In this document: positions 21,981 through 38,895 of the stretch, piece by piece
Layout of the letters: each line of letters begins with the position of its first letter
How positions within the stretch are numbered: position 1 is the stretch's first letter
Assembly: GCA_012719355.1 (NCBI GenBank)
Contig: JAAYAM010000249.1
Location: 1-61,624 of the forward strand
Source: Acidobacteriota bacterium
GTDB lineage: Bacteria > Acidobacteriota > UBA6911
Reading direction: 5' to 3'
Length of the DNA stretch: 61,624 bases
Made by a program: the position numbers and the translations under genes
Notes under the pieces: generated by a model
What the model saw: the letters and a program-made list of their open reading frames with translations, nothing else
Databases searched by the model: none
What the model was told of the DNA's origin: nothing

Positions 21981-22044
21981 GGGATGTGAAACGATTCGGT
22001 AGCATGTTTTGCAACCCCCTTTCGGCTCCAAGGAGGGGAGCGTT

Positions 22045-23046
22045 ATGGTAGGAATTGGTGTTGTCGGTTATGGCTATTGGGGTCCCAATATCGTCAGAAA
22101 CTTCCAGGGTGCGAGATTCGGATCCGTGAAATGCATCTGCGATACCGCCCCGAAATCCCTGGAGAGGGCCAAGCAGTATCATCCGGAAATCAAGGTGACG
22201 ACTGACTTCGACACGCTTCTTGGCGACCCCGAGATCGATGCCGTGGCGATCGTCACGCCGGTCCAGACACATTATCCACTCGCCAGAAGGGCGCTTATGA
22301 GGGGAAAGCATGTGTTCGTGGAAAAGCCTTTCACCCAGAGCACCGCGCAGGCCGAAGAGCTGATCGAGATGGCTGCCGAAAGCCAACTCAAGATCATGGT
22401 CGACCATACATTTCTGTTCACGCCTGCAGTCCGAAAGATCAAAGAACTTATCGACAATGATGTGCTGGGCCGCCTTTATTACTACGACTCCATGAGAGTG
22501 AATCTGGGCCTGTTTCAATCGGATGTAAATGTCATCTGGGACCTTGCCGCCCACGATCTTTCCATCATGCAGCACATTCTTCCCAGAAAGCCTGAGGCCG
22601 TCGTCGCCGCAGGACAGAGGCATGTCAACGGTGTCGAGGATGTTGCCTACATCATGGTCTATTTTGCCGACAACGTTATCGCACACTTCAACGTCAACTG
22701 GCTCTCTCCGGTGAAGGTGAGGACGACATTGATCGGCGGGAGCAAGAAGATGCTGGTATGGAACGACCTTGAGGCCGACGAGAAGATCAAGGTCTACGAC
22801 AAAGGCGTATCCACTGATGACGGCGCGGGGCTCTACGACATTCTCGTCAGCTATCGTATGGGAGATGTCTGGATCCCAAGGCTGGAACAGGCGGAGGCAT
22901 TGCGGCTCGAGACACAGTACTTCTTCGAGTGTATTGAAAACGACCGGACCCCGTTCAACGACGGCGTCGCCGGATTGAGGGTTGTTCAGATGCTGGAGGC
23001 GGCAAACGCCTCGCTGAAGAACAAGGGAGGCGTCGTCTACTTATGA
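22045..23046 (+). CDS. Gfo/Idh/MocA-family nucleotide-sugar dehydrogenase
   Basis: A 333-residue NAD-dependent oxidoreductase with the Rossmann motif GVVGYGYWGPN at the start and the family EKP motif (HVFVEKPFTQS). Members oxidise sugar hydroxyls, often C3 of UDP-sugars to give substrates for an aminotransferase. It is followed by an acetyltransferase (4-bp overlap) and a DegT aminotransferase, which together would make a 3-acetamido sugar. Start 22045 is chosen over 22009 since it follows GGAGGGGAG and begins the Rossmann fold. A second, more WbpB-like paralogue is at 53798. Confidence 0.88.
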   Translation: MVGIGVVGYGYWGPNIVRNFQGARFGSVKCICDTAPKSLERAKQYHPEIKVTTDFDTLLGDPEIDAVAIVTPVQTHYPLARRALMRGKHVFVEKPFTQSTAQAEELIEMAAESQLKIMVDHTFLFTPAVRKIKELIDNDVLGRLYYYDSMRVNLGLFQSDVNVIWDLAAHDLSIMQHILPRKPEAVVAAGQRHVNGVEDVAYIMVYFADNVIAHFNVNWLSPVKVRTTLIGGSKKMLVWNDLEADEKIKVYDKGVSTDDGAGLYDILVSYRMGDVWIPRLEQAEALRLETQYFFECIENDRTPFNDGVAGLRVVQMLEAANASLKNKGGVVYL

Positions 23047-23546
23047 GCGACTTCCGCTGTGTTACGGCCGACGTCAGGTTGGGAGACAACGTATACCTGT
23101 CCCGTTTCATCAATCTCTATGGATGCACGATCGGTGACAATACCAGAATCGGCGCATTTGTCGAGATTCAGAAAAACGCCATCATTGGGAAGAACTGCAA
23201 GATCTCGAGCCATACCTTCGTCTGTGAAGGGGTTGAAATCGAAGACGACGTCTTCGTCGGCCATAACGTGGCGTTTATCAACGACAGCTATCCAAGGGCG
23301 ACCACGGACGGGAGAATTCAGAGGGAAGCCGACTGGAAGGTGGAAACGACTCTCGTGCGGCGAGGGGCTTCGATCGGCTCGGGCGCTACGATACTGTCCA
23401 ACCTCACCATCGGAGAGAACGCAATCGTCGGAGCGGGGAGCGTCGTCACCCATGACGTGCCCGCCAATGCCATCGTTGCCGGGAATCCGGCCAGGATCCT
23501 GCGGTACGTGGGAACAGAGAGGACCGATGAGAGTACCATTCGTTGA
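23043..23546 (+). CDS. Left-handed beta-helix N-acetyltransferase (WbpD/FdtC-like)
   Basis: A 167-residue hexapeptide-repeat acyltransferase. Repeats run from VRLGDNVYLSRFINLYGCTIG to ENAIVGAGSVVTHDVP, with the closing GNPARIL segment typical of sugar N-acetyltransferases. The His in SSHTFVCEG or VFVGHNVAF could serve as the catalytic base. It would acetylate the amino group installed by the aminotransferase gene that overlaps its 3' end. A longer paralogue is at 54828. Confidence 0.88.
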   Translation: MSDFRCVTADVRLGDNVYLSRFINLYGCTIGDNTRIGAFVEIQKNAIIGKNCKISSHTFVCEGVEIEDDVFVGHNVAFINDSYPRATTDGRIQREADWKVETTLVRRGASIGSGATILSNLTIGENAIVGAGSVVTHDVPANAIVAGNPARILRYVGTERTDESTIR

Positions 23547-24684
23547 TGCCGTCGCCTCCAACATGGAGGATCTGGAGGAAATGGTCGAACTGTTTCGCTC
23601 CATAGTCATTTCCGGACAGTTTGTTGGAGGGGCGGAAGTCGAGAGCTTTGAAAAGGAATTCGCCGGGTTCTGCGGAACATCCGAAAGCGTGGCCGTCAGT
23701 ACCGGTACCGACGCGCTCCGTTTCGCGTTGATGGCAGCCGGCATCGGGAACAATGATCTCGTCCTGACCGCACCCAATACGTTTATAGCAACTACTGAGG
23801 CTATTACCCAGGCAGGCGCCGCGTTCGACTTTGTCGATATAGATGAAAAAACCTACACGATCGATCCCGAGGCGCTTAGCGAGTATTTCAAGAGATCATC
23901 GCGTCCGGTGAAAGCAATTATCCCGGTCCATCTTTACGGACAGATGGCCGACATGGATCCGATCCTGACTCTTGCTGCCGAAAACGGGGCGATTGTGATC
24001 GAGGATGCATGCCAGGCCCACGGCGCCGAATACTATTCGATCAAGCGGAAACGCTGGTTCCGTGCAGGATCGATGGGGCTTGCCGCCGCCTTCAGCTTTT
24101 ATCCGGGGAAGAACCTGGGAGCTTGCGGGGAAGGGGGCGCGGTTACCACGGATGATCCGGATTTGGCCGCAAGAATCCGTATGCTTCGCGATCATGGTCA
24201 ATCGGCAAAATACCGGCATGAAGTCGAAGGCTACAACGGCCGCCTTGATGCAATCCAGTGCGGTATTCTCCGGCTCAAACTCCGTCATCTGGAGAAGTGG
24301 AATGAACGGCGGCGCAGCGCAGCTTCCGTCTATGGCACAATGCTGGAGGGAATTGAGGGGATCTCTCTGCCGCACGTGCCGGAGAGGGTGAAAAGCGTGT
24401 TTCACCTGTACGTCATCCGCGCGGAAATGCGTGACGAGCTGCAGAATTGGCTCGCTGCGCGCGGCGTGGGAACCGGGCTGCACTACCCCGTGCCGCTGCA
24501 CATGCAGAAATGCTATGCCGGTCGCAAATGGAGTCCGGAGGATTATCCTGTAGCCGCAGAAGCCGCCGGCTCGATTCTATCCCTTCCCATGTATCCCCAG
24601 CTGTCGACGATTCAGCAGCGCTATGTGGCCGACCAGATACTCGCGTTCAGGTCCGAGATCGGAGTGCGTGCACGCTTCGGCTGA
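23527..24684 (+). CDS. wbpE: DegT/DnrJ/EryC1 (WbpE-like) PLP-dependent sugar aminotransferase
   Basis: A 385-residue aminotransferase converting a 3-keto nucleotide sugar to the 3-amino sugar, usually with glutamate as donor. VSTGTDALRFAL binds PLP phosphate, EDACQAHGA carries the Asp that pairs with the pyridine, and FSFYPGKNLGACGEGG contains the Schiff-base lysine. The frame is open upstream to 23059 through the acetyltransferase gene; ATG at 23527 is preceded by AGAGAGGA and gives the family N-terminus MRVPFVDA. Neighbours (3-dehydrogenase and N-acetyltransferase) support the role. Confidence 0.9.
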   Translation: MRVPFVDAVASNMEDLEEMVELFRSIVISGQFVGGAEVESFEKEFAGFCGTSESVAVSTGTDALRFALMAAGIGNNDLVLTAPNTFIATTEAITQAGAAFDFVDIDEKTYTIDPEALSEYFKRSSRPVKAIIPVHLYGQMADMDPILTLAAENGAIVIEDACQAHGAEYYSIKRKRWFRAGSMGLAAAFSFYPGKNLGACGEGGAVTTDDPDLAARIRMLRDHGQSAKYRHEVEGYNGRLDAIQCGILRLKLRHLEKWNERRRSAASVYGTMLEGIEGISLPHVPERVKSVFHLYVIRAEMRDELQNWLAARGVGTGLHYPVPLHMQKCYAGRKWSPEDYPVAAEAAGSILSLPMYPQLSTIQQRYVADQILAFRSEIGVRARFG

Positions 24685-24717
24685 AGTACGCTTTGAGTGA
24701 ACCACATAATCCCCGGG

Positions 24718-25689
24718 ATGAGAATCATGAGTTCTGATACTCAGTCAAACGGCCAACGGCTGTGCTCGTATGTGCTGATAACGCCGGCCCGGAACGAAGA
24801 GCAATATATCCGAAAAACGATTGAAGCCGTCATATCCCAGACTCTTCTCCCTCGGAGATGGATCATTGTCAGCGATGGATCCACCGATCGGACCGATGCA
24901 ATCGTAAGCGAGTATTTGCCCGGCCGCCCCTGGATGCAGCTCATCCGGAGAGAAAAGCAGAGTGAGCGGAATTTCGCGTCGAAAGCCGCCTCGGTCAACG
25001 CCGGTTTGAAAGCTCTCGAGACAGTCGAATACGATGTGGTCGGCAATCTTGATGCAGACATCACATTTGGAAGCACGTATTTCGAATCGCTCATGGAACG
25101 ATTCGCTGCCGATCCGGAACTCGGCGTTGCCGGCAGTGCTTTTGTCGATGATTCGATGAAGTACAACTACGATTTTGTCGGAATCGAGCACGTTTCGGGG
25201 ATGTGCCAGCTCTTCAGACGGAAGTGCTTCGCGCAGATCGGCGGCTACCAGCACATTCCTGGTGGCGGCGTTGATCTGGTGGCGGTCACGACGGCGCGGA
25301 TGAAGGGATGGAAGACCAGGACATTCACCGACCTCTCCTGCCGGCATCACCGTAAAATGGGGACCAGCCTCTCGGGGCCGATCCGCCTGCACTATCGTTA
25401 CGGGGCCGAGGATTACTACCTGGGCAGCCATCCTCTTTGGGAAATTCTGCGCTGCGTCCGTCATTTGTCCGACAGGCCGCTGATACTGTCAAGCCTCTCC
25501 CTCCTTGCGGGCTATTCTGTTTCCTATATCAGACGCATCCCCCGTCCCGTTCCTGAAGAATTCGTCAGGTTCCGCAGGAGAGAACAGATGACGCGGTTGA
25601 AGAGAATCGTGCTGGAGACTCTCGTGCCCGACGCTTTCAGGACAAAATTCCTGGAAAGGGACCAGCGATCGCAGATTGCGAACCGATGA
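24718..25689 (+). CDS. Family 2 glycosyltransferase
   Basis: A 323-residue GT-A fold transferase. Donor-binding VLITPARNEEQYIRKTI and VSDGSTDRT lead to the DxD-type NLDADITFG near residue 110. The HVSGMCQLFRRKCFAQIGG segment is the usual acceptor-side region. The C-terminus has no clear membrane anchor. It adds a sugar to the lipid-linked repeat unit on the cytoplasmic face. GTG at 24697 and ATG at 24727 are alternative starts; no site has a strong ribosome sequence. Confidence 0.88.
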   Translation: MRIMSSDTQSNGQRLCSYVLITPARNEEQYIRKTIEAVISQTLLPRRWIIVSDGSTDRTDAIVSEYLPGRPWMQLIRREKQSERNFASKAASVNAGLKALETVEYDVVGNLDADITFGSTYFESLMERFAADPELGVAGSAFVDDSMKYNYDFVGIEHVSGMCQLFRRKCFAQIGGYQHIPGGGVDLVAVTTARMKGWKTRTFTDLSCRHHRKMGTSLSGPIRLHYRYGAEDYYLGSHPLWEILRCVRHLSDRPLILSSLSLLAGYSVSYIRRIPRPVPEEFVRFRRREQMTRLKRIVLETLVPDAFRTKFLERDQRSQIANR

Positions 25690-26909
25690 ACCGGCATTTA
25701 TCTCAGAGTGAGCTCTGGCAGAGACTCAGCAGACTCGCTTCGTGGATTGAAAGAAACAACTACCGCGGCTACGAGCCCTTTGATGCCCTGCTTTCTCCGT
25801 TGCGGCCGATCGCCTTCAGGAGGCCGTATATGGAAAGACTCCTGATACAGGCGGTGAGGCAATGCCCTGTCAACCTGCGTCCTCTCCTGGGCATTGAGCC
25901 GCATGAATCGTCGATGGGGCGGGGATGCATGGCGTCAGGATACCTGAGCCTGTACCGGTTTACAGGTTCGCCCGAATACCTGGAGAAGGCGAATGTCTGC
26001 CTTGAGTGGCTCATTCGGAACAAGTCGCCCTTTTTCGAGGAATACACCTGGGGACATCACTTCGATTGGGTAAGCAGGGCCGGTCCTCATCCGATGTACA
26101 TGCCTACGATAGTGTGGACCAGCCTGATCGGTCATTCCTTTCTCGATGCCTACGAACTGACCGGGAAATCGATTTATTCGGAAGTGGTCGCCGCAATATG
26201 CAGGTGGATCCTTGCGTTGCCGAGAGAAAGAACCCTTAACGGGACCTGCATCAGTTATGTCAGCTTCCGGCAGGATTCAATCCACAACTCCAACATGCTC
26301 GGCGCTTCCATTCTCGCGCGATACGGAGCGCTGAACGGCGACAGGGAGTGTATCGATACTGCCGGCGAAGCGATGCTCTACAGCTGTGAACGCCAGCTTC
26401 CCAACGGCGCTTGGTACTATGGCGAGTCACCGATGCATCGCTGGATAGATAATTTTCACACGGCATACAATCTCGACAGCCTGAAGTGCTACCTCGAGTA
26501 CACAAACAGCGATCTGTTCAAGAAGAACCTGCAGAATGGCTACCGGTATTACAGGGAGACTTTCTTTGAGGCGGACGGCTGTCCGAGGTACTACGACCGG
26601 CGCACATATCCGATCGACATTCAGTGCGCATCCCAGTCCATCACCACTCTCAGCATCTTCGCGGACTACGAAGAGACATCCCTCGAGCAGGCTCATCGCG
26701 TGGCCAGGTGGACGATCAATCACATGCAGGACGAAAGCGGCTATTTCTACTATCGAAAACTGCCGGGAATCACCGTCAAGACGCCGATGTTTCACTGGGG
26801 CCAGGCCACCATGTTCAAGGCCCTGACACATCTTTATTCCACCAGCTATACCAGAGGGAGTGAAGCTGACATCCTGCCTCTCTCAACCGGGGACAAGGGG
26901 AGATGCTGA
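25686..26909 (+). CDS. Six-hairpin (alpha/alpha-toroid) glycosidase-like protein of a polysaccharide locus
   Basis: A 407-residue protein without signal peptide, overlapping its neighbours on both sides. Repeated helical hairpins with WxxxH and aromatic patches (YTWGHHFDWVSRAG, GAWYYGESPMHRWIDNFHTAYNL, HWGQATMFKALTHLY) match the six-hairpin glycosidase-like fold of unsaturated glucuronyl hydrolases and epimerases. Homologues I know of are common in O-antigen clusters without an assigned reaction. It could trim or epimerise a repeat-unit precursor; this is inference. Confidence 0.65.
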   Translation: MNRHLSQSELWQRLSRLASWIERNNYRGYEPFDALLSPLRPIAFRRPYMERLLIQAVRQCPVNLRPLLGIEPHESSMGRGCMASGYLSLYRFTGSPEYLEKANVCLEWLIRNKSPFFEEYTWGHHFDWVSRAGPHPMYMPTIVWTSLIGHSFLDAYELTGKSIYSEVVAAICRWILALPRERTLNGTCISYVSFRQDSIHNSNMLGASILARYGALNGDRECIDTAGEAMLYSCERQLPNGAWYYGESPMHRWIDNFHTAYNLDSLKCYLEYTNSDLFKKNLQNGYRYYRETFFEADGCPRYYDRRTYPIDIQCASQSITTLSIFADYEETSLEQAHRVARWTINHMQDESGYFYYRKLPGITVKTPMFHWGQATMFKALTHLYSTSYTRGSEADILPLSTGDKGRC

Positions 26910-27691
26910 TAATAAATGCCGATGACTTCGGAAAGATCAAGGCGGCCACCGAAAGAATCGTACTCTGCCACAAGAGCGGACGTATCACCTCGGCCACTGC
27001 CATGATGTTTATGGCAGACAGCGACCGTTCCGCAAGACTTGCGAAAGATAACGGAATCGAGACCGGGCTGCACCTGAATCTGACCGATCAGTTCACCGGC
27101 AATCATGAGCCTCATCTGGCGAGATGCCAGCAGCGCGTTTCTCAACATCTCAGGAACTCACGTTTTGCCCCGCTGCTGTTCAACCCTCTTTTGAGAAACG
27201 AATTCGAGTATACGTGCAGAAGCCAGTGGGAACGATTTGAGAAGATCTACGGCAGACCGCCGTCACACCTGGACGGACATCACCACATGCACATCTGCGC
27301 CAACGTACTGTTTTCCCGATTTATTCCTGCGCGTTTCAGGGTGCGGCGCAACTTTCATTTTACCTCCGGCGAGAAAGGGATGTTGAACCGCCTGGTGAGA
27401 AGGATCGTCGACCGGTACATAGAGTGGAGGTTTGTCTCTACCGACTATTTCTTCTCGATAAAGCCGTTTGAAAACCGGAGTCGCATACGCGGGATCAGCG
27501 AACTCGCCCGGCGGTCGAATGTGGAACTGATGGTCCATCCTGATGAGGATGAGGAGTTCATCTTTCTGATGAGCAATGAATTTCGCGATCTCATCGCGGA
27601 CGTCGAAACGGGTGGTTATTCAGCCCTGACGCAGGATGGGAAGAGATCCACGATACCTGAAGAGCCTTCATGGACCATCGAAAGAAGATAG
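26903..27691 (+). CDS. ChbG/HpnK (YdjC)-family carbohydrate deacetylase
   Basis: A 262-residue deacetylase starting with the metal-binding LIINADDFG and containing GLHLNLTDQF near residue 56 and HLDGHHHMH near residue 122, which supply the divalent-metal ligands. ChbG removes N-acetyl groups from chito-oligosaccharides; HpnK acts on hopanoid-linked acetylglucosamine. Here it probably N-deacetylates a GlcNAc-type residue of the polysaccharide. It overlaps the gene before and the epimerase gene after it. Confidence 0.9.
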   Translation: MLIINADDFGKIKAATERIVLCHKSGRITSATAMMFMADSDRSARLAKDNGIETGLHLNLTDQFTGNHEPHLARCQQRVSQHLRNSRFAPLLFNPLLRNEFEYTCRSQWERFEKIYGRPPSHLDGHHHMHICANVLFSRFIPARFRVRRNFHFTSGEKGMLNRLVRRIVDRYIEWRFVSTDYFFSIKPFENRSRIRGISELARRSNVELMVHPDEDEEFIFLMSNEFRDLIADVETGGYSALTQDGKRSTIPEEPSWTIERR

Positions 27692-28776
27692 TCGCGATCG
27701 TAGGGGCCAGGCCTCAATTCATCAAGGCGGCAGTCGTGTCCCGGGCGCTCCGCTCCGAAGAGAGTCTTGAAGAGATTCTGGTCCACACGGGGCAGCACTA
27801 CGACTTCAAAATGTCCGGAGCTTTCTTTGAGGAGCTCGAAATCAGGCAGCCGGATCACTTTTTGAATGTGGGCAGCGGCATGCACGGGTATCAGACGGGA
27901 GAGATCATGAAGAAACTGGAGCCGGTGCTGATGTCAGAAGAGCCGGCGCTCGTCCTGGTCTACGGAGACACGAATTCCACACTGGCCGGCGCTCTCACGG
28001 CCGCCAAGCTTAACTGTCCGGTCGCCCATGTCGAAGCGGGACTGCGATCCTTCAACAGAAGAATGCCGGAAGAGATCAATAGAATCGTCACCGATCATCT
28101 CGCTTCTCTGCTCTTCTGCCCCACGAGCGCGGCATGCGCGAATCTTCATGCGGAGGGGATCAGTGACGGCATCATCATGACCGGCGATGTGATGTACGAC
28201 GTAGCTCTGCACTTCGGGCCGTCGGCCGAGCGCAGGAGCAGAATACTTGAGAAGCTGAATCTTCTGCGCGGGAAGTATATTCTTGCGACGGTTCACCGAG
28301 CGGAGAACACCGATGACGAATCCAGGATGCGAAGTATCTTCAGAGCGTTCGAATTCCTTTCGAGCGAGGTCCGGATCGTCTTTCCAATCCATCCAAGAAC
28401 AAGGAAAATGGCGACCCACTACGGGCTCGACAGCTTGCTCCGTCCTTTGCTGGTTACGGACCCGCTGGGATTTCTGGACATGATGATGCTAGTCAGAAAC
28501 GCCGGTGTTGTCTGCACGGATTCGGGCGGAATCCAGAAGGAAGCGTATTTCCACCGGGTAGGGTGTGTAACTCTGCGGGACCAGACGGAATGGGTCGAGA
28601 CTGTCGATTCGGGATGGAACGTCCTTGCGGGTGCCGATTCGTCCGACCGCATTGTAAGGGCGGTTCACCAGATGCTGGATGCGAATGATCAGAGAAGGGC
28701 CATAGAAGAGTACGGCGATGGGACCGCGTCCGGCAGAGTGGTTGAGGCAATAAGAGGTTTTGTACTTCCCGGATAA
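27670..28776 (+). CDS. wbpI: UDP-N-acetyl sugar 2-epimerase, WbpI-like
   Basis: A 368-residue 2-epimerase. The N-terminus GARPQFIKAA rather than the GTRPEAIK of WecB, HVEAGLRSFNRRMPEEINR and ATVHRAENTDD mark the WbpI/WecB family, with the GDVMYDV form typical of WbpI. WbpI converts UDP-2,3-diacetamido-glucuronic acid to the mannuronic isomer. With wbpE-, wbpD- and wbpB-like genes in the same locus, this substrate is more likely than plain UDP-GlcNAc, but the latter cannot be ruled out. Confidence 0.85.
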   Translation: MDHRKKIVAIVGARPQFIKAAVVSRALRSEESLEEILVHTGQHYDFKMSGAFFEELEIRQPDHFLNVGSGMHGYQTGEIMKKLEPVLMSEEPALVLVYGDTNSTLAGALTAAKLNCPVAHVEAGLRSFNRRMPEEINRIVTDHLASLLFCPTSAACANLHAEGISDGIIMTGDVMYDVALHFGPSAERRSRILEKLNLLRGKYILATVHRAENTDDESRMRSIFRAFEFLSSEVRIVFPIHPRTRKMATHYGLDSLLRPLLVTDPLGFLDMMMLVRNAGVVCTDSGGIQKEAYFHRVGCVTLRDQTEWVETVDSGWNVLAGADSSDRIVRAVHQMLDANDQRRAIEEYGDGTASGRVVEAIRGFVLPG

Positions 28777-28800: not shown

Positions 28801-30252
28801 ATGGGTCAGAGACTTGAATTGTTACACTGGATTGAAAAACTGAACACGGCCAGACTGCTGGTCCTCGGGGACGTCATGCTCGACAGGTTTATCTATGGCG
28901 ATGTTTCGCGAATATCGCCCGAAGGCCCTGTCCCCGTCCTGCGGTCGACCGAGATGAAGTCTGTTCTGGGCGGCGCCGGCAATGTAGTGCGTAACCTTGC
29001 CTCTCTTGGCTCGAGAGTGCATTTCGTCTCTACCGTCGGTTCCGACACACCCGCGGATCAGATACGTGACCTGCTTTCTCAGCTTCCTCTTGTGGAATCG
29101 TGCCTGATCACCGATCCGTCCCGTGAATCGACCGTTAAGACGAGATTTCTGTCAAAGCAGCAGCAACTGCTTCGAGTCGATTCAGAAACCGCTCGTCCCA
29201 TAGGTGAAACCGTGCTGCAGAAGGCCGTGGAAGCCGTCCGCGGCTATCTTCCATTGTGCGATGTCGCCGTCATTTCCGATTACGGCAAGGGGTTCATGAG
29301 TCAGGAATTTTTGAAGGCCCTTCTGCCTTTGTGCAGGGAAAATGGGGTGCCTGTCCTGGTGGATCCGAAAGGGCCGGACTATTCAATCTATCGAAATGCA
29401 TCTATTCTCACGCCGAACCTGAAAGAGCTGGGAGAGGCGACAAAGATGATGGTCGCAGACGATGAGTCCGTGGTTCTGGCCGCGCAGAAACTCATTGAGG
29501 AGTGCTCCGTTGAAGCCGTTCTTGCGACCCGGAGCCAGGATGGCCTGTCGCTCGTGGAAGGTTCCGGAAGAGTTACTCACCTGAGATCGGAGGCGAAGGA
29601 AGTATTTGACGTGACCGGCGCCGGCGACACCGTGATTGCGGTGATGGGGGCCGCGCTTGCCTCCGGCGTGCCGCTGGTCCAGTGCGCGGAAATAGCGAAC
29701 CTCGCAGCCGGAATCGTGGTCGGAAAGGCGGGAACGGCGGTGATTTACGCGAACGATCTGATTCGTGCTGTCCGGCAGCAGGAGTTTTCTACCGCAGAAT
29801 CGAAAATACTCGACCAGGTTGCCGCTGCAGAGCAGGTGGAGATGTGGCGGCGCCGCGGCTACAGCATAGGATTGATGAACGGTTTCTTCGAGTTGCTCCA
29901 TCCCGCGCACGTACGGCTGCTCTCACAGGCGTCGAAGATGTGCGACCGGTTGATCGTTGGAATCAACGGCGACGATTCAATTCTGCGGATAAAGGGTGAG
30001 CATCCAATCCTTCACGAAGCCGCGCGCAGCGCGATCATCGCGTCTCTCGAGGATGTCGACATGGTAGTCATATTCCAGGAGGATACTCCGGCACAATTGA
30101 TAGAGCTGCTGAAACCAGATCTCCTGATCAAGAGAACCGTTCCGTCCGATGCCGGTACCATCGAAAAAGATGCGCCCGACAGCGACAGACAGGTTTTGCT
30201 TATCGATGTCCAGGAAGAGCGGGAGAGAACCATCACCGGCAGGGTGCAGTGA
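28801..30252 (+). CDS. hldE: HldE-like heptose kinase/adenylyltransferase with altered second domain
   Basis: A 483-residue two-domain protein. The N-terminal PfkB-type kinase (about 1-320) is intact: GDVMLDRFIYGDVSRISPEGPV, GGAGNVVRNL and the catalytic FDVTGAGDT. HldE kinases phosphorylate heptose 7-phosphate at C1. The C-terminal nucleotidyltransferase (about 345-483) is unusual: the NGxFDxLHxGH motif reads NGFFELLHPAH, and the KGGDY segment is KRTVP. Adenylyl transfer may be lost or changed. No gmhA or gmhB is in the window. Confidence 0.85.
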   Translation: MGQRLELLHWIEKLNTARLLVLGDVMLDRFIYGDVSRISPEGPVPVLRSTEMKSVLGGAGNVVRNLASLGSRVHFVSTVGSDTPADQIRDLLSQLPLVESCLITDPSRESTVKTRFLSKQQQLLRVDSETARPIGETVLQKAVEAVRGYLPLCDVAVISDYGKGFMSQEFLKALLPLCRENGVPVLVDPKGPDYSIYRNASILTPNLKELGEATKMMVADDESVVLAAQKLIEECSVEAVLATRSQDGLSLVEGSGRVTHLRSEAKEVFDVTGAGDTVIAVMGAALASGVPLVQCAEIANLAAGIVVGKAGTAVIYANDLIRAVRQQEFSTAESKILDQVAAAEQVEMWRRRGYSIGLMNGFFELLHPAHVRLLSQASKMCDRLIVGINGDDSILRIKGEHPILHEAARSAIIASLEDVDMVVIFQEDTPAQLIELLKPDLLIKRTVPSDAGTIEKDAPDSDRQVLLIDVQEERERTITGRVQ

Positions 30253-30283
30253 TACACGCAGGTACTGCAATCTTTCGTCTGAC

Positions 30284-31234
30284 ATGACTGTAATCCCGTT
30301 TCCCTGTATCCCCGCTTACCGCATTAACGTACAGGAGGCGCTGTCAGAACCTCGTTTTACCGTCGCCCTTTCCCACGACGTCGACCGCGTGCACAAATCA
30401 TTTCAGTCGGCCACCCATTTCTTGAAATACCTGAGGAATGGTTGTCTGCGTCAGGCCCTGTACCAGCTGCGGTCGGTGACTCGTTCAGAACGGTATTGGT
30501 GCTTCGACAAGATACGACGGATTGAGATCTCCCGGGGATTGAGATCCACGTTTTACTTTCTCAATGAAAGCTATCCTTTCAATCCCATGAAACTCGAGAG
30601 CTGGCGCCTGGCTCTCGGATATTACGACATCTTCCGTCCTGCAGTCGCCGGCATGATCAGGCAGCTCGACTCCGAGGGATTCGAAATCGGCCTGCACGGT
30701 TCCTATCGCTCGTACTGCGACCGGGATCTTCTTCAGAAGGAAAAGCGGGACCTTGAAGCCATTCTCGGCCACAGCGTGACAGGCATCAGGCAGCACTATC
30801 TCAATCTGTCGGCGGAGACCTGGATGATTCAGAGGGACCTCGGCTTTCTCTACGACACCTCGTTCGGATACCGCGATGGAATCGGCTTCAAGTGCGGCTT
30901 CTTTCGCCCATTCCCCCTCGATGACAGGAATGATTTCTTTATTGTTCCCCTGTCCATGATGGACTGCTGCCTCATGCGTCAGCCCGATCCCTGGAGCCGG
31001 GCGTCGGAACTCATCGACCTTGCAGAAACAAAGAAGGCGCTGCTGGTGCTGAACTGGCATCAGCAGATTTTCGACGAACGGGAATTTCCGGGTTACTGCA
31101 GCATGTACGAACGCATAATCGACGAGTGCATCAGCAGGGGAGCCGTCTTTGTTACCCTGGGAGCCTATGTCGCCGGCTATGCTGCGCTAATGCATTCGCC
31201 CTCGGCAACCGGGCGAGAGAGTCCTTCTTTATGA
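30284..31234 (+). CDS. NodB-type polysaccharide deacetylase-like protein
   Basis: A 316-residue protein with a polysaccharide deacetylase-like fold. The first motif is VALSHDVDRVHKS (metal Asp), the His pair region is EIGLHGSYRSY, GIRQHYLNLS is the third motif, and VLNWHQQIF near the C-terminus supplies the last His. There is no signal peptide, so it acts in the cytoplasm, probably on a lipid-linked intermediate. Start 30284 is taken since the frame upstream overlaps the hldE 3' end. The next gene starts inside its stop (ATGA). Confidence 0.82.
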   Translation: MTVIPFPCIPAYRINVQEALSEPRFTVALSHDVDRVHKSFQSATHFLKYLRNGCLRQALYQLRSVTRSERYWCFDKIRRIEISRGLRSTFYFLNESYPFNPMKLESWRLALGYYDIFRPAVAGMIRQLDSEGFEIGLHGSYRSYCDRDLLQKEKRDLEAILGHSVTGIRQHYLNLSAETWMIQRDLGFLYDTSFGYRDGIGFKCGFFRPFPLDDRNDFFIVPLSMMDCCLMRQPDPWSRASELIDLAETKKALLVLNWHQQIFDEREFPGYCSMYERIIDECISRGAVFVTLGAYVAGYAALMHSPSATGRESPSL

Positions 31235-32414: not shown

Positions 32415-33416
32415 ATGGAACAAAGAAGCGATATTACAGCCGGACCACGGCAGGAACTCACAGAAGTAAGGGTGAAGGGAAAGAACCGCCTTCTACCTTC
32501 GCTGAAAATCCGCGATCGCACTGTCGTCTTTTCGAACGGTTGGCCGCGTCTGGCCTCGGTCAAGGACGAAGATTTCATCCAGGGAGAGCCGGTCGATGAT
32601 CCCGCGGCATTCGTGGCCGCGATAAAGCGCTGCCGATATGGCGCCGACATCTTCACGTTCGCTCAGAAGTTTCCGGATACCAGGCCGAAGCACGCGTTTC
32701 GCATGGAATGGGACAACGTGGCGGCGATCCCGCTGACAAGCTACCAGCACTGGCTTGAAGAGCAGATAACCGGGAACATGAGGAAAATACTGAGGCGGTC
32801 GTCACGGCGCGGCATTTCGGTAGGACAGGTTGATTTCACCGACGAATTCGTAAGAGGTGTAGTGGAAATCTACAACGAGAGTCCGGTGAGACAGAACAGA
32901 TCCTTCTGGCACTACGGAAAAACGTTCGACACGATCAAGCTTGAAACAGGCACGTACCTGGAAAGGAGCGTTTTCCTCGGGGCCTTCTTCGAAGGGAATC
33001 TCGTTGGTTTTATAAAGCTCGTCTTTGTGGACAGGATAGCGAGGCTGATGCAGATAGTCTCGATGATCAGTCACAGCGACAAGATGCCAACCAATGCTCT
33101 TATAGCAAAAGCCGTCGAAATCAGCGCCGACCGGGGATGCACCCACCTGACCTACGGAAAATACATCTACGGGAAGATGGGATATACATCTCTCACTGAA
33201 TTCAAGGTCCGCAACGGATTCGAGAGATTTCTGCTTCCTCGATACTACCTGCCTCTCACGGTGGCCGGCGAAATGGCAATCAAGCTGCGGATGCATCGAG
33301 GGATCAAAGAACTTATGCCGGGGAAAATGATGAGGCTGATGGCTTCAGTGCGGGCCGGTTATATCATCAGGAAGAGCGGCAGAAACGGCAAACGCCGGGA
33401 TCAGGAGTGTTCGTGA
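32415..33416 (+). CDS. FemAB/GNAT-superfamily acyltransferase-like protein
   Basis: A 333-residue protein whose middle and C-terminal parts resemble FemAB-like N-acyltransferases: GNMRKILRRSSRRGISV, VFLGAFFEGNLVGFIKLVFV, PTNALIAKAVEISADRGCTHLTYGK. Such enzymes transfer an acyl or aminoacyl group to an amine. It is cytoplasmic and overlaps an asparagine-synthetase-like gene, so the two may attach an amide- or amino-acid-type group to a sugar. Start codon is uncertain (32391 GTG or 32415 ATG). Confidence 0.7.
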   Translation: MEQRSDITAGPRQELTEVRVKGKNRLLPSLKIRDRTVVFSNGWPRLASVKDEDFIQGEPVDDPAAFVAAIKRCRYGADIFTFAQKFPDTRPKHAFRMEWDNVAAIPLTSYQHWLEEQITGNMRKILRRSSRRGISVGQVDFTDEFVRGVVEIYNESPVRQNRSFWHYGKTFDTIKLETGTYLERSVFLGAFFEGNLVGFIKLVFVDRIARLMQIVSMISHSDKMPTNALIAKAVEISADRGCTHLTYGKYIYGKMGYTSLTEFKVRNGFERFLLPRYYLPLTVAGEMAIKLRMHRGIKELMPGKMMRLMASVRAGYIIRKSGRNGKRRDQECS

Positions 33417-35311
33417 GTCCGGCCGAAGCAGAACGGGGCATTGCGGTCATGGATTCTGCGCAGGAAATGCGCAGGCCGGTGATCCTTACTCCTGCTTTAG
33501 CGGGAATCGTAGGTATGGGAGATTCGGGGGACGCCGAGGGCAGGGTGCGAACGATGCTGGACCGGATGGCATACGGCCAGCGCCATGTTTCGGGACGATA
33601 TCTGAATGATCAGCTGAAATTGAACCTGGGATGGCTCTCTCCGAGGGGGAGCGGGCCCGCTGATTTCCCGGTGTGGAACGCAGCCGGTGATCTGGGGCTG
33701 ATAATTTTCGGCGAACTCTATGATGACAGCCCCGAGACTGAAGGAAACGCGGAACCTGGTTCCAGGCTGAAAACGCAGGCGCAGGAGCTTATCCGCAGTT
33801 TCGAGAAGGAAGATACCGCGGCATTCCGGCGACTCAACGGCTGGTTCGGAGGAGTGCTGATCGACTTGCGCCGGCAGCGCCTGATCATCTTCAATGACAG
33901 ATATGGTCTCTTCAGAATTCACTACCATGAGAACCGCCGCGGATTCTATTTCTCGTCCGAAGCGAAGTCCATAGTCGCCGCGGTCCCCGAGACGAGAGAG
34001 CTTGATTACAGGAGTCTGGCTGAATTCATCCTCTGCAGCTGCATAATGCAGAACCGCAGCATGTTCTACGGTATTTCGCTGCTGCCGGGCGGCTCGGCGT
34101 GGATATTCGAGAAACGCGGACCTGCGAAGAAACAAAAGTACTTCGACAGCAGCGAATGGGAGAGCCAATCCCCTCTGGGGCACGGAGAATACTACGACGG
34201 GCTCAGGAAGATCTGGGCTGCGGTCCTGCCGCGGTACTTTGCCGGGAGCCAGGAGCGGGGGCTCTCGTTAACAGGCGGCGTCGACAGCCGCATGATACTT
34301 GCCTGGAAGCCGGAAGGGACGGGCAGACTTACCTGCTACACCTTCGCGGGAAGATACCGGGACAGTTCTGACGTAAACGTCGCCAGGAAACTGGCGGAAC
34401 TGTGCGGCCAGCCTTACGAGGTGATCTGTGTGGATGAGAAGTTCTTTCCTCTCTTTCCCGACCTTGCCGAAAACTGCATTCTGATCAGTGATGGCACCAT
34501 GGATTTGTCCGGCACAATCGATCTGTTCGTGCAGGCGGCCGCACGTCGGATAGCTCCGGTACGGATAACAGGGACCAACGGCGGCGAGATCATGAGAAGC
34601 CTTGTCGCATTCAAACCCGCCGATCTCAGTCTGCATCTGTTTGTCGACGGTTTTCAGGATTCACTGCGCGCCGTTTCGAAAACGTATGCGGACGAGTTGC
34701 GCGCAAACAGGCTCACCTTTACCGCCTTCAAACAGGTGCCCTGGTACATGAACACAAAATTCACGCTCGAGCGTTCGCAGGTGACGCTCAGGATGCCCTA
34801 CTTCGACAATGATCTCGTTTCTTTCGTCTACAGGGCCCCCGCCGGTCATGATTCCGGAAACAGGCTTGCGCTGCGTCTTGTTGCAGACGGGAACCCTGCG
34901 CTGGCCCGTATCGGAACCGACCGGGGGATTTCTCTCGAATCTGCTTCGCTGCTCACGATGGGTCGGCAGCTGGTGCAGCAGTTCACCTTCAAGCTCGAGT
35001 ATGCCTACGATTACGGAATGCCTCACTGGCTGGCAAGGCTCGATCAGTATTGCTCCAGCCTGAACTTGAGCCGGTTCATACTTGGCAGGCACAAATTCCA
35101 CCATTTCAGGACGTGGTATCGCCGCGAGCTTTCCGGTTATCTCAAGGGTGTGCTTCTAGACCCGCGCACGCTCCAGCGTCCCTACCTTCGCGGAACAGTA
35201 CTTGAGAGAACGGTCAAGGAACATATCGCAGGAAAAGCCAATTACACGCGCGAGTTCCACAAGATTCTGGCGGTTGAACTGACTCAGCGGCGTCTGCTGG
35301 AGGGGAATTGA
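33413..35311 (+). CDS. Asparagine-synthetase-like ATP-dependent ligase lacking the glutaminase cysteine
   Basis: A 632-residue AsnB-like protein. The C-terminal synthetase domain has the PPi loop SLTGGVDSRMIL near residue 286 and TGTNGGEIMR; the N-terminal Ntn region is recognisable (NDRYGLFRIHY, FYFSSEAKSIV). The glutaminase nucleophile Cys, which follows the initiator Met in true enzymes (MCGIxG), is replaced: the segment reads LAGIVGMGD about 30 residues in. It thus cannot take ammonia from glutamine in the usual way, resembling beta-lactam synthetases and lasso cyclases. GTG at 33413 with AGGAG 5 bp upstream is the likely start. Confidence 0.85.
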   Translation: MSPAEAERGIAVMDSAQEMRRPVILTPALAGIVGMGDSGDAEGRVRTMLDRMAYGQRHVSGRYLNDQLKLNLGWLSPRGSGPADFPVWNAAGDLGLIIFGELYDDSPETEGNAEPGSRLKTQAQELIRSFEKEDTAAFRRLNGWFGGVLIDLRRQRLIIFNDRYGLFRIHYHENRRGFYFSSEAKSIVAAVPETRELDYRSLAEFILCSCIMQNRSMFYGISLLPGGSAWIFEKRGPAKKQKYFDSSEWESQSPLGHGEYYDGLRKIWAAVLPRYFAGSQERGLSLTGGVDSRMILAWKPEGTGRLTCYTFAGRYRDSSDVNVARKLAELCGQPYEVICVDEKFFPLFPDLAENCILISDGTMDLSGTIDLFVQAAARRIAPVRITGTNGGEIMRSLVAFKPADLSLHLFVDGFQDSLRAVSKTYADELRANRLTFTAFKQVPWYMNTKFTLERSQVTLRMPYFDNDLVSFVYRAPAGHDSGNRLALRLVADGNPALARIGTDRGISLESASLLTMGRQLVQQFTFKLEYAYDYGMPHWLARLDQYCSSLNLSRFILGRHKFHHFRTWYRRELSGYLKGVLLDPRTLQRPYLRGTVLERTVKEHIAGKANYTREFHKILAVELTQRRLLEGN

Positions 35312-36405: not shown

Positions 36406-37540
36406 AGTTGCGATTCTGGGTTGCGGCAAGATTGCCGATGCGCACGCATCACAGATTCAGCGCATACGCGGATGCGAAATCGTAGGAGTCTGTGACCGTG
36501 AAGAACTCATGGCACGTCAGCTGTATGAACGGTTCAGGGTGCGGCAATATTTCAATGATTTGAACAAAATGCTCAAGGTTGCTCGTCCCGATGTCGTCCA
36601 CATCACTACTCCGCCCCAAAGCCATTATGCCCTGGCCCGAGAATGCCTCTCCCGTGGATGTCACGTCTATGTGGAAAAGCCGTTTGCCATCAGCTTCAAC
36701 GAGGCGCAGGACCTGATAGACTTTGCCGGGAAAAAAGGACTGAAGGTTACTGTGGGTCATGATGACCAGTTCCGTCCGGCCACGAGGCGGATGCGTGAAC
36801 TGGTCCGGTGCGGGTTTCTCGGTAAGAGAGTGGTCCACATGGAGAGCTACTACTGCTATGAACTGGGTGGATCAGGATACGCGAATGCATTGCTGAGCGA
36901 TAAGAACCATTGGGTGCGGCAGCTCCCGGGCGGTCTGCTGCACAACATCATCAGCCACGGAATCGCCAGGATTTCCGAGTTCCTGACAACGGAGGATCCT
37001 TGCGTTCATGCCGTAGGGTTTATCAGTCCTGCATTGAAAAACCGGGGAGAGAACGTACTTAAAGACGAGTTGCGGGTCATCATTACCGAAGAGTGCGGGA
37101 CGACCGCCTGTTTTACGTTTTCTTCACAGATGAGGCCCTCGCTTCATCAATTCAGGATTTACGGCAGCAGAAACGGTCTGCTGTTGGACCAGGACTCGGA
37201 AACCCTGATCAGGCTGAGAGGAGAGAGACGGAAGAGTTACCTCGAGCACTTTGTCACTCCGCTGACTCTGGCGCGCCAGTACGCCGAAAACTCCCTGACG
37301 AATGTACGGCTGTTTCTGGCGAACGATTTCCATATGAAGGAAGGCATGAAGTATCTCATCCAGTCGTTCTACTATTCCATCGATGAGGACGCGCCGCTGC
37401 CCATACCTTATCGTGAAATCCTGCTGACTGCGCGCATCATGGACAGAATCTTCGAACAGACCAATGCCACCGGAAGCGCCGGCATCGCTCACCGGATCAC
37501 CCGGCCCCTCTCGCTGGAGACTCCATGCCTCCCCAACTAG
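36398..37540 (+). CDS. Gfo/Idh/MocA-family oxidoreductase
   Basis: A 380-residue NAD(P)-dependent oxidoreductase beginning RVAILGCGKIADAHA and containing the family EKP motif (HVYVEKPFAISF) and a later HNIISHGIARISE segment with a catalytic-type His. It follows the SDR with an 8-bp overlap after GAGGAAAA. Such pairs often interconvert hydroxyl and keto groups on nucleotide sugars. It is clearly diverged from the two other Gfo paralogues in the locus. Confidence 0.88.
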   Translation: MLRVAILGCGKIADAHASQIQRIRGCEIVGVCDREELMARQLYERFRVRQYFNDLNKMLKVARPDVVHITTPPQSHYALARECLSRGCHVYVEKPFAISFNEAQDLIDFAGKKGLKVTVGHDDQFRPATRRMRELVRCGFLGKRVVHMESYYCYELGGSGYANALLSDKNHWVRQLPGGLLHNIISHGIARISEFLTTEDPCVHAVGFISPALKNRGENVLKDELRVIITEECGTTACFTFSSQMRPSLHQFRIYGSRNGLLLDQDSETLIRLRGERRKSYLEHFVTPLTLARQYAENSLTNVRLFLANDFHMKEGMKYLIQSFYYSIDEDAPLPIPYREILLTARIMDRIFEQTNATGSAGIAHRITRPLSLETPCLPN

Positions 37541-38895
37541 CCCTGCTGCTTGCGGCAGTCTTCATGGTCTGGCTCCTCCGTCGTGAGAGGAAAAGCCGGG
37601 AAGCACTCTCCGGTGTGCTCTGGCTGCCAATCACGTGGGCCTTCATCATTGGATCAAGGCCGTTGTCGGAGTGGCTGCAGGGAAGCGAACCAGGATTAGA
37701 AACCGCTCCGATAAACTATTTGGAGGGAAGCCCGCTTGACAGAACAGTGTACTTTCTGCTGATTGTCGCGGGTCTCCTGGTCCTGTTCGGAAGGCGGGAA
37801 CGTCTTGCAGGAATCGTATGGCAGAACAAATGGCTCTTTCTGTTCTACCTCTATCTCTTTCTGAGCATCACGTGGTCGGATTACAGCTACGTTTCCTTCA
37901 AGCGGCTGATTAAAGATTTCGGCAATGTGATCATGGCACTCGTGGTGCTCAGCGAAATCCATCCTTATCAGGCCGTCAGATCAGTCCTGCTGCGCTCAGC
38001 GTATCTGCTGATTCCTCTTTCTGTGGTGGCGATCAAATACTTTCCGGATGTGGGCCGGTACTATGACAGATGGGCCCATACCGCTTATTTCTCCGGGGTT
38101 GCCGGTGATAAGAACCTTCTCGGCATGGCGCTGTTTGTATGCGGACTGTTTCTCTTCAACGAGTTTCTCGATTCAAGAAAGGGACCTGATGCTGAACGCC
38201 TTCGCGCCGGAATCCCGCTGATGGTTCTCATCATGATGGCGTTCTGGCTGCTGATGAAGGCTTACAGCGTCACTGCCATCGTCTGCACAATTCTGGGAGC
38301 CGTGATCCTTTATGTGTTGAAACGCGGTGGGCGTCAGAGGCTGGTCATCTCTATCTCGATTGCCGCGGTGCTGGGGCTGTTCACCTTCTCCGTGCTCGAT
38401 TTCGGAGCCCTGCTGGGAGGCCTGCTCGGCAGGGACGTTACCCTGACCGGTAGAACAGAGATCTGGAGGATCCTTCTCGATGAAAAAATCAATCCGCTGC
38501 TGGGCACGGGATTTTACAGCTTCTGGCTGGGCTCGCGAATTGACAAGCTGTCAGAACAATACCACTTCACTCTGAACGAAGCGCATAACGGCTATCTGGA
38601 AACGTACCTGAACAGCGGTATCGTCGGACTGGCGCTGCTTGTTCTGGTGCTCGCTTTCTCTTTGCGTGCCCGCTGGCGCGAACTTGGCATTGGAACTCCT
38701 GCCGCCCCTTTTTACGTTTCGTTCCTGATAGCGACCGTTCTGTATAACATCAGCGAAGCCACCTTCAATCGGCTCAGCATCATCTGGTTCACCTTCATGA
38801 TCGTGATTCTGGCCAACCATGAACATCCGGCGGTGCAGGAGGAGAAAACGGTCCGGACCGCTGCTATCCCTGCCAGATCGCTGCTGAGAACGTGA
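37525..38895 (+). CDS. O-antigen polymerase/ligase family protein (Wzy-like)
   Basis: A 456-residue integral membrane protein with about ten hydrophobic segments, for example FLLIVAGLLVLFG, WLFLFYLYLFLSITW, LLIPLSVVAIKYF and GLALLVLVLAFSL. The central periplasmic loop holds the Wzy_C/ligase pattern (GRTEIWRILLDEKINPLLGTGFYSFW followed by LNEAHNGYLETYLNSGIVG), including the conserved Arg and His. In a Wzx/Wzy locus it is the natural candidate for the polymerase; ligase activity is the alternative. It overlaps the Gfo gene by 16 bp and ends the first co-directional block. Confidence 0.88.
   Translation: MPPQLALLLAAVFMVWLLRRERKSREALSGVLWLPITWAFIIGSRPLSEWLQGSEPGLETAPINYLEGSPLDRTVYFLLIVAGLLVLFGRRERLAGIVWQNKWLFLFYLYLFLSITWSDYSYVSFKRLIKDFGNVIMALVVLSEIHPYQAVRSVLLRSAYLLIPLSVVAIKYFPDVGRYYDRWAHTAYFSGVAGDKNLLGMALFVCGLFLFNEFLDSRKGPDAERLRAGIPLMVLIMMAFWLLMKAYSVTAIVCTILGAVILYVLKRGGRQRLVISISIAAVLGLFTFSVLDFGALLGGLLGRDVTLTGRTEIWRILLDEKINPLLGTGFYSFWLGSRIDKLSEQYHFTLNEAHNGYLETYLNSGIVGLALLVLVLAFSLRARWRELGIGTPAAPFYVSFLIATVLYNISEATFNRLSIIWFTFMIVILANHEHPAVQEEKTVRTAAIPARSLLRT

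Follow-up and report, generated by a model that had tools for sequence, protein, structure and literature searches.

Gene organisation of the locus

The present analysis concerns a 61,624-nucleotide stretch of DNA from an Acidobacteriota bacterium (JAAYAM010000249.1, hereafter the window; contig C186 of a 4.6-Mb genome in 377 contigs) and, within it, two adjoining genes that encode a transferase and an asparagine-synthetase-like ligase. An earlier note on this DNA had described a FemAB-like acyltransferase gene overlapping the gene of a Cys-less ligase, and had proposed that the two products activate a carboxylate and form an amide in a polysaccharide. The reading frames and their overlap were found as described there. 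The features of the pair are listed below.

32415-33416, + strand: FemX/MprF-like double-GNAT transferase, predicted to depend on aminoacyl-tRNA (from the fold model, the Phe-Lys motif and relatives)
33201-33206, + strand: Phe263-Lys264 of the transferase, kept in 59 of 61 relatives
33403-33416, + strand: AGGAG (33403-33407), a five-base spacer and the probable ligase start GTG, which shares bases with the transferase stop TGA (GTGA)
33413-35311, + strand: asparagine-synthetase-like amide ligase with a dead glutaminase domain (from Pfam, fold and residue comparison); first possible GTG at 33407
33491-33493, + strand: Pro29 of the ligase, where AsnB has its catalytic Cys (from the alignment with relatives)
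34265-34291, + strand: ATP-PPi loop SLTGGVDSR, ligase residues 287-295

Counted from its ATG, the transferase frame (32415-33416) encodes 333 amino acids, and the ligase frame, counted from the first GTG (33407-35311), encodes 634. For the ligase, GTG 33413 is a more probable start than GTG 33407, because the former lies five bases after the AGGAG and overlaps the transferase TGA, in which case GTGA would be a four-base start/stop overlap. The overlap suggests that the two genes may be co-translated. Among the relatives, a short gap usually separates them.

Conservation of the pair

The occurrence of the two genes was analysed in 395 other sampled genomes of the phylum. The ligase clade was identified in eight of them (32-45% identity, E values below 1e-75), with a clear gap to the generic asparagine-synthetase-like matches (E values of 4e-28 and above). 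The transferase was identified in five of the 395, all of which were among the eight holders of the ligase clade (hypergeometric p 7e-10); the pairing is therefore not a matter of chance.

The search was extended to 84,980 species genomes. A genome scan with the single transferase sequence found nothing and an alignment was needed, which yielded 66 transferase loci, 65 of them distinct, in Acidobacteriota, Verrucomicrobiota, Nitrospirota, Proteobacteria and others. Many of the carriers are bacteria of soil and water. An orthologous ligase was present in 60 of the 65 loci, always on the same strand: at most 400 bp downstream in 45, at most 1.5 kb downstream in nine, further away in five and just upstream in one. 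Two of the five loci with no ligase nearby lay in short contigs. The earlier note had named a lack of conservation elsewhere as grounds for giving up its proposal; the pair was instead found across several phyla, and in polysaccharide loci wherever the context was visible.

Several individual loci deserve mention. In genomes G238 and G230, ligases of the clade occurred without the transferase and followed TupA-like ATP-grasp proteins, which stood in its place (L053 8272-9216 and L050 13077-14006). Such a protein was considered as a general partner of the ligase and rejected, being present in none of the 32 loci with full context. The G230 ligase itself (L050 11228-13075) contained in-frame stops and is likely a pseudogene or an assembly error. 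Loci L078 and L079 proved to be one 29,941-base contig placed in two metagenome bins, labelled Phycisphaerae and KSB1, and L110 came from a bin labelled Bordetella parapertussis yet placed in the phylum of the window, a label that looks wrong.

The ligase has lost its glutaminase site and kept its synthetase site

The ligase matched the Pfam models Asn_synthase (PF00733, E value 2.7e-13, above the cut-off) and GATase_7 (8.8e-10). Its predicted model (predicted local distance difference test, pLDDT, 79; predicted template modelling score, pTM, 0.85) was closest in fold to TsnB9 (Z score 29.6), followed by AsnB (26.3), beta-lactam synthetase (23.9) and carbapenam synthetase (22.9). The absence of the glutaminase Cys, remarked on from the outset, was borne out and proved to be both clade-wide and more extensive than the Cys itself. 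Pro29 of the window ligase lies in the context LTPALAGIVG, which aligns with MPGI.G of the relatives, and the same position held Pro in 54 of the 56 relatives with a readable N-terminus, the other two having Ser and Thr. In the numbering of E. coli AsnB, Arg49 was replaced by Trp in 53 of 59 clade proteins, Asn74 by Ser or Ala, and Asp98 by a mix of residues. In AsnB, Arg49, Asn74 and Asp98 bind glutamine. All three, together with the Cys, were retained in the 22 Cys-bearing AsnB proteins encoded in the same loci. One such second AsnB-like protein (L108 8051-9910) lies beside the Cys-less ligase, and similar genes were seen in 15 of the 32 full-context loci.

On the synthetase side, the loop SLTGGVDSR was present as noted earlier. 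Across the clade, the second Gly and the Asp of the TGGxD loop were invariant (59/59), a Glu was kept in 58 of 59 proteins and the Lys of RxK in 54. The position that is presumably Glu348 in AsnB and Tyr348 in beta-lactam synthetase was mostly Asn in the clade and Thr in the window ligase. Taken together, residues and predicted fold support what we consider a sound reading, that the ligase would be an amide synthetase unable to draw ammonia from glutamine. The likeness to beta-lactam synthetases and lasso cyclases drawn in the earlier note holds for the dead glutaminase domain and the retained ATP-PPi site; the nearest folds, in turn, were those of the hydroxyamidotransferase TsnB9 and AsnB. 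Assignment to the XrtA/PEP-CTERM amidotransferase TIGR03108 was dropped, as the ligase scored 65.7 bits against a cut-off of 816.9; a relative in L060 reached 94.1 bits.

Predicted fold and conserved motif of the transferase

Sequence models gave little information on the transferase. The window protein matched only Acetyltransf_6 (E value 0.16) and had no FemAB match; sequence matches were to acetyltransferase models. Weak matches to Pfam FemAB were obtained for 10 of 26 relatives, the best with an E value of 0.001, and the gathering score was not reached. The predicted model (pLDDT 79, pTM 0.74) was more informative. It matched FemX over 259 residues (Z score 19.9, root mean square deviation 3.9) with both GNAT domains spanned, and further matches were Sba18 and Sbb17 (about 18), FemA (17.3) and MprF (about 15). 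The double-GNAT coverage extended over residues 11-296.

GNAT enzymes that use acetyl-coenzyme A (CoA) carry an R/QxxGxG/A loop, which binds the CoA pyrophosphate. The matching stretch of the transferase family reads HxDKxPxNAL, with no G-x-G/A. The conserved Phe263-Lys264 was aligned by hhalign (probability 58%) with the FK of FemAB-family proteins, whose key lysines include Lys305 in FemX and Lys329 in DhpH-C (PMC12945691). Structures of Sba18 and Sbb17 have been solved with streptothrisamine, and the FemABX-like Orf11 of the BD-12 pathway depends on Gly-tRNA to convert streptothrisamine to glycylthricin (PMC12945691). We therefore predict from the model that the transferase is a FemX/MprF-like enzyme using aminoacyl-tRNA. 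The label FemAB-like was thus not supported by a sequence search with the window protein alone, and was supported by the fold, by the weak matches of its relatives and by the Phe-Lys motif. Two loci carried two copies of the family, in tandem in L112 (8997-10900) and separately in L085 (1813-2778 and 9896-10837); this may mean that two amino acids are transferred successively.

The surrounding polysaccharide cluster

The window holds a long run of polysaccharide genes, of which those for chain length and sugar transfer lie at 17-22 kb. The genes that bear on the proposed function are listed below.

22009-23046, + strand: WbpB-like UDP-sugar 3-dehydrogenase (Gfo/Idh/MocA), family-level match
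23043-23546, + strand: WbpD-like hexapeptide N-acetyltransferase, family-level match
23527-24684, + strand: WbpE-like DegT aminotransferase, family-level match; start ATG 23527 chosen
24697-25689, + strand: glycosyltransferase of family 2, accompanying the pair in 46 of 65 loci
25686-26909, + strand: 407-amino-acid protein with no assigned function, conserved with the pair
26903-27691, + strand: YdjC-like carbohydrate deacetylase
27670-28776, + strand: non-hydrolysing UDP-GlcNAc 2-epimerase family (WecB/WbpI-like)
30281-31234, + strand: polysaccharide-deacetylase-like protein, best NCBIfam match VimE
37525-38895, + strand: Wzy/O-antigen-ligase-like protein, accompanying the pair in 47 of 65 loci

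The WbpB, WbpD and WbpE homologues were assigned by family match and gene order, with scores below every listed equivalog cut-off; the three genes also adjoined one another in L058. Either WbpB or WbpE was found in 17 of the 32 full-context relatives, 13 of which had a deacetylase too, and WbpE-like enzymes and deacetylases were frequent neighbours across the loci. The window also holds a short-chain dehydrogenase/reductase, a Gfo/Idh/MocA oxidoreductase, more glycosyltransferases and a Wzx-like flippase, and UDP-sugar dehydrogenases are encoded elsewhere in its genome. A uronic acid as the putative substrate would fit the WbpB/D/E-like genes.

The 407-amino-acid family shows a faint similarity to alpha/alpha-barrel glycoside hydrolases. 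It accompanied the pair in 19 of the 32 full-context loci and also occurred where the ligase was missing (L086 and L090). An HldE-like fused sugar kinase and nucleotidyltransferase (28801-30252) had no counterpart in the related loci.

Proposed function and alternative explanations

The pair is likely to be an amide tailoring module. More specifically, we propose, at about an even chance, that an aminoacyl transferase and a glutamine-independent amide ligase attach groups by amide linkage to a sugar residue of the polysaccharide that the cluster produces. The proposal is based on the observed conservation of the pair, the loss of the glutaminase site, the retention of the ATP-PPi site, the predicted folds and the pathway genes present; which donor, acceptor and amino acid are involved, and in which order the steps occur, is what we infer from these. 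The WbpB/D/E-like enzymes would produce the nucleotide sugar of a 2,3-diamino uronic acid, with the 6-dehydrogenase encoded elsewhere in the genome, and the VimE-like or the YdjC-like deacetylase would free one amine of this sugar. The FemX-like transferase would then pass an amino acid from aminoacyl-tRNA to the freed amine, as is thought for VimA, and the AsnB-like ligase would convert a carboxylate, most likely C6 of the uronic acid, to an acyl-AMP and couple this to an amine or to ammonia, obtained directly and without recourse to glutamine. The earlier proposal thus stands insofar as amide tailoring by the pair is likely; a single joint reaction gives way to two separate tailoring steps, which the evidence favours and one of which would be aminoacyl transfer from tRNA.

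Several observations weigh against this proposal. The transferase had no match to the PEP-CTERM FemAB model TIGR03019, which VimA does match, and the deacetylase at 30281-31234 scored 57.5 bits with the VimE model NF053580, far below the cut-off of 440. The predicted models of the two proteins drew on only 6 and 7 sequences, with a mean pLDDT of 79. Three loci with full context (L086, L101 and L107) had the transferase with no ligase nearby. Wbp genes were found within 10 kb in only about half of the full-context loci, so that some loci may do without a diamino uronic acid. The distance (mirror-tree) correlation of transferase and ligase was no stronger than that with Wzy; since all gene pairs gave a significant correlation, the result is uninformative on this one.

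Given the fact that the P. gingivalis enzyme WbpS makes the glucuronamide of a linking sugar (PMC7468200), the ligase might be a WbpS-like uronamide synthase that has lost its glutaminase and works on free ammonia, while the transferase acts on another sugar. The AsnB fold and the retained synthetase site of the clade would suit such an enzyme. However, a site that is dead across a whole multi-phylum clade fits a different nucleophile better than free ammonia, and the Cys-bearing AsnB in 15 of 32 full-context loci means that many of them already possess a functional amidotransferase; we hold this explanation to be unlikely. The dead glutaminase domain and the kept ATP-PPi site are also those of beta-lactam synthetase, and the ligase is tightly paired with a predicted aminoacyl transferase, which would suit a ring closure in which the transferred aminoacyl amine attacks the activated uronic carboxylate of its own or the adjacent sugar to give a lactam or a cross-link. 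This seems quite unlikely, as the Tyr that presumably belongs to the beta-lactam synthetase dyad is Asn or Thr in the clade.

The transferase, for its part, could be an ordinary acyl-CoA N-acyltransferase of GNAT fold, paired with the ligase only by virtue of the shared polymer, and the acetyltransferase models that it matched in sequence point in this direction. The best fold matches were nevertheless to enzymes that use aminoacyl-tRNA and covered both GNAT domains (residues 11-296), the CoA pyrophosphate loop was absent and the Phe-Lys motif was conserved, which makes this explanation unlikely.

Comparison with known systems

In P. gingivalis, Wbp enzymes produce 2,3-diacetamido glucuronic acid; removal of its C-2 acetyl group is tentatively ascribed to VimE and the addition of serine or glycine to VimA, and the uronamide is formed by the AsnB-like WbpS (PMC7468200). 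The product, 2-N-seryl-3-N-acetylglucuronamide, links secreted proteins to anionic lipopolysaccharide (A-LPS) (PMC7468200). The cluster described here resembles this pathway, and that of Tannerella forsythia, in its WbpB/D/E-like enzymes, deacetylase, GNAT-like transferase and AsnB-like enzyme, which are likened by activity. It differs in occurring in other phyla, in a transferase with no detectable match to TIGR03019 and in a ligase clade that lacks the glutaminase.

The transferase shares the predicted double-GNAT fold and the Phe-Lys motif with FemABX, MprF and the streptothricin-type enzymes (Sba18, Sbb17, Orf11), whereas identity in the structural alignments was only ~7-14% and its acceptor would be a polysaccharide precursor. 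The ligase has the two-domain fold and ATP-PPi loop of AsnB, TsnB9 and TIGR03108, and differs from them in lacking the catalytic Cys, Arg49, Asn74 and Asp98. With beta-lactam synthetase, carbapenam synthetase and lasso peptide cyclase it would share an inactive glutaminase domain and a kept synthetase site, as judged from the alignments; it is set apart from these by weak sequence similarity, other substrate-site residues and the polysaccharide context.

Apart from the general domains Asn_synthase and GATase_7, no curated family model among those searched reached its cut-off with either protein. A literature search on asparagine synthetase, FemAB and polysaccharide returned only the P. gingivalis work and the Rubrivivax psc1 cluster, in which a PEP-CTERM FemAB-type gene and wbpS-type genes occur together, and nothing on the transferase-ligase pair; its tailoring step seems not to have been described before. 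The pair would represent a sequence-defined and widespread two-enzyme module for placing amino acids or amides on bacterial surface polymers, and includes a clear clade of AsnB-like ligases that have abandoned glutamine. Two questions become testable with it: whether polysaccharides are routinely supplied with amino acids borne on tRNA, and whether such aminoacyl sugars play for exosortases the part that the P. gingivalis linking sugar plays for the type IX sortase.

Association with exosortases

The proximity of VimA-like and AsnB-like genes to exosortases has been remarked on (PMC7468200). An exosortase was found in 28 of 33 carrier genomes, compared with 143 of 396 sampled from the phylum of the window (p 4e-8), the carriers being multi-phylum and the background unmatched. 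As exosortases accompany polysaccharide loci generally, this association is a lead and no proof. It is conceivable, albeit improbable, that an exosortase (often an XrtC-like one) anchors exported proteins by their C-terminus to the free amine of an aminoacylated, amide-modified sugar built by the pair; if true, this would identify the acceptor of exosortase substrates.

The only exosortase found in the window genome was XrtA-like and lay on a 3.7-kb contig separate from that of the pair, too short for linkage to be read, and in most other carriers, too, the exosortase was on a contig other than that of the pair. No paper was found in a literature search on VPDSG. In ten genomes, an exosortase match shared a contig with the pair or the ligase, at a distance of up to about 36 kb (G325, G135, G275, G363, G238, those of L060, L067, L069 and L121, and weakly that of L111, from the culturable Methylobacter marinus A45). 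Eight of the nine classified exosortases scored best with the model of the VPDSG-CTERM exosortase XrtC, three of them leading narrowly and only that of L151 passing the cut-off.
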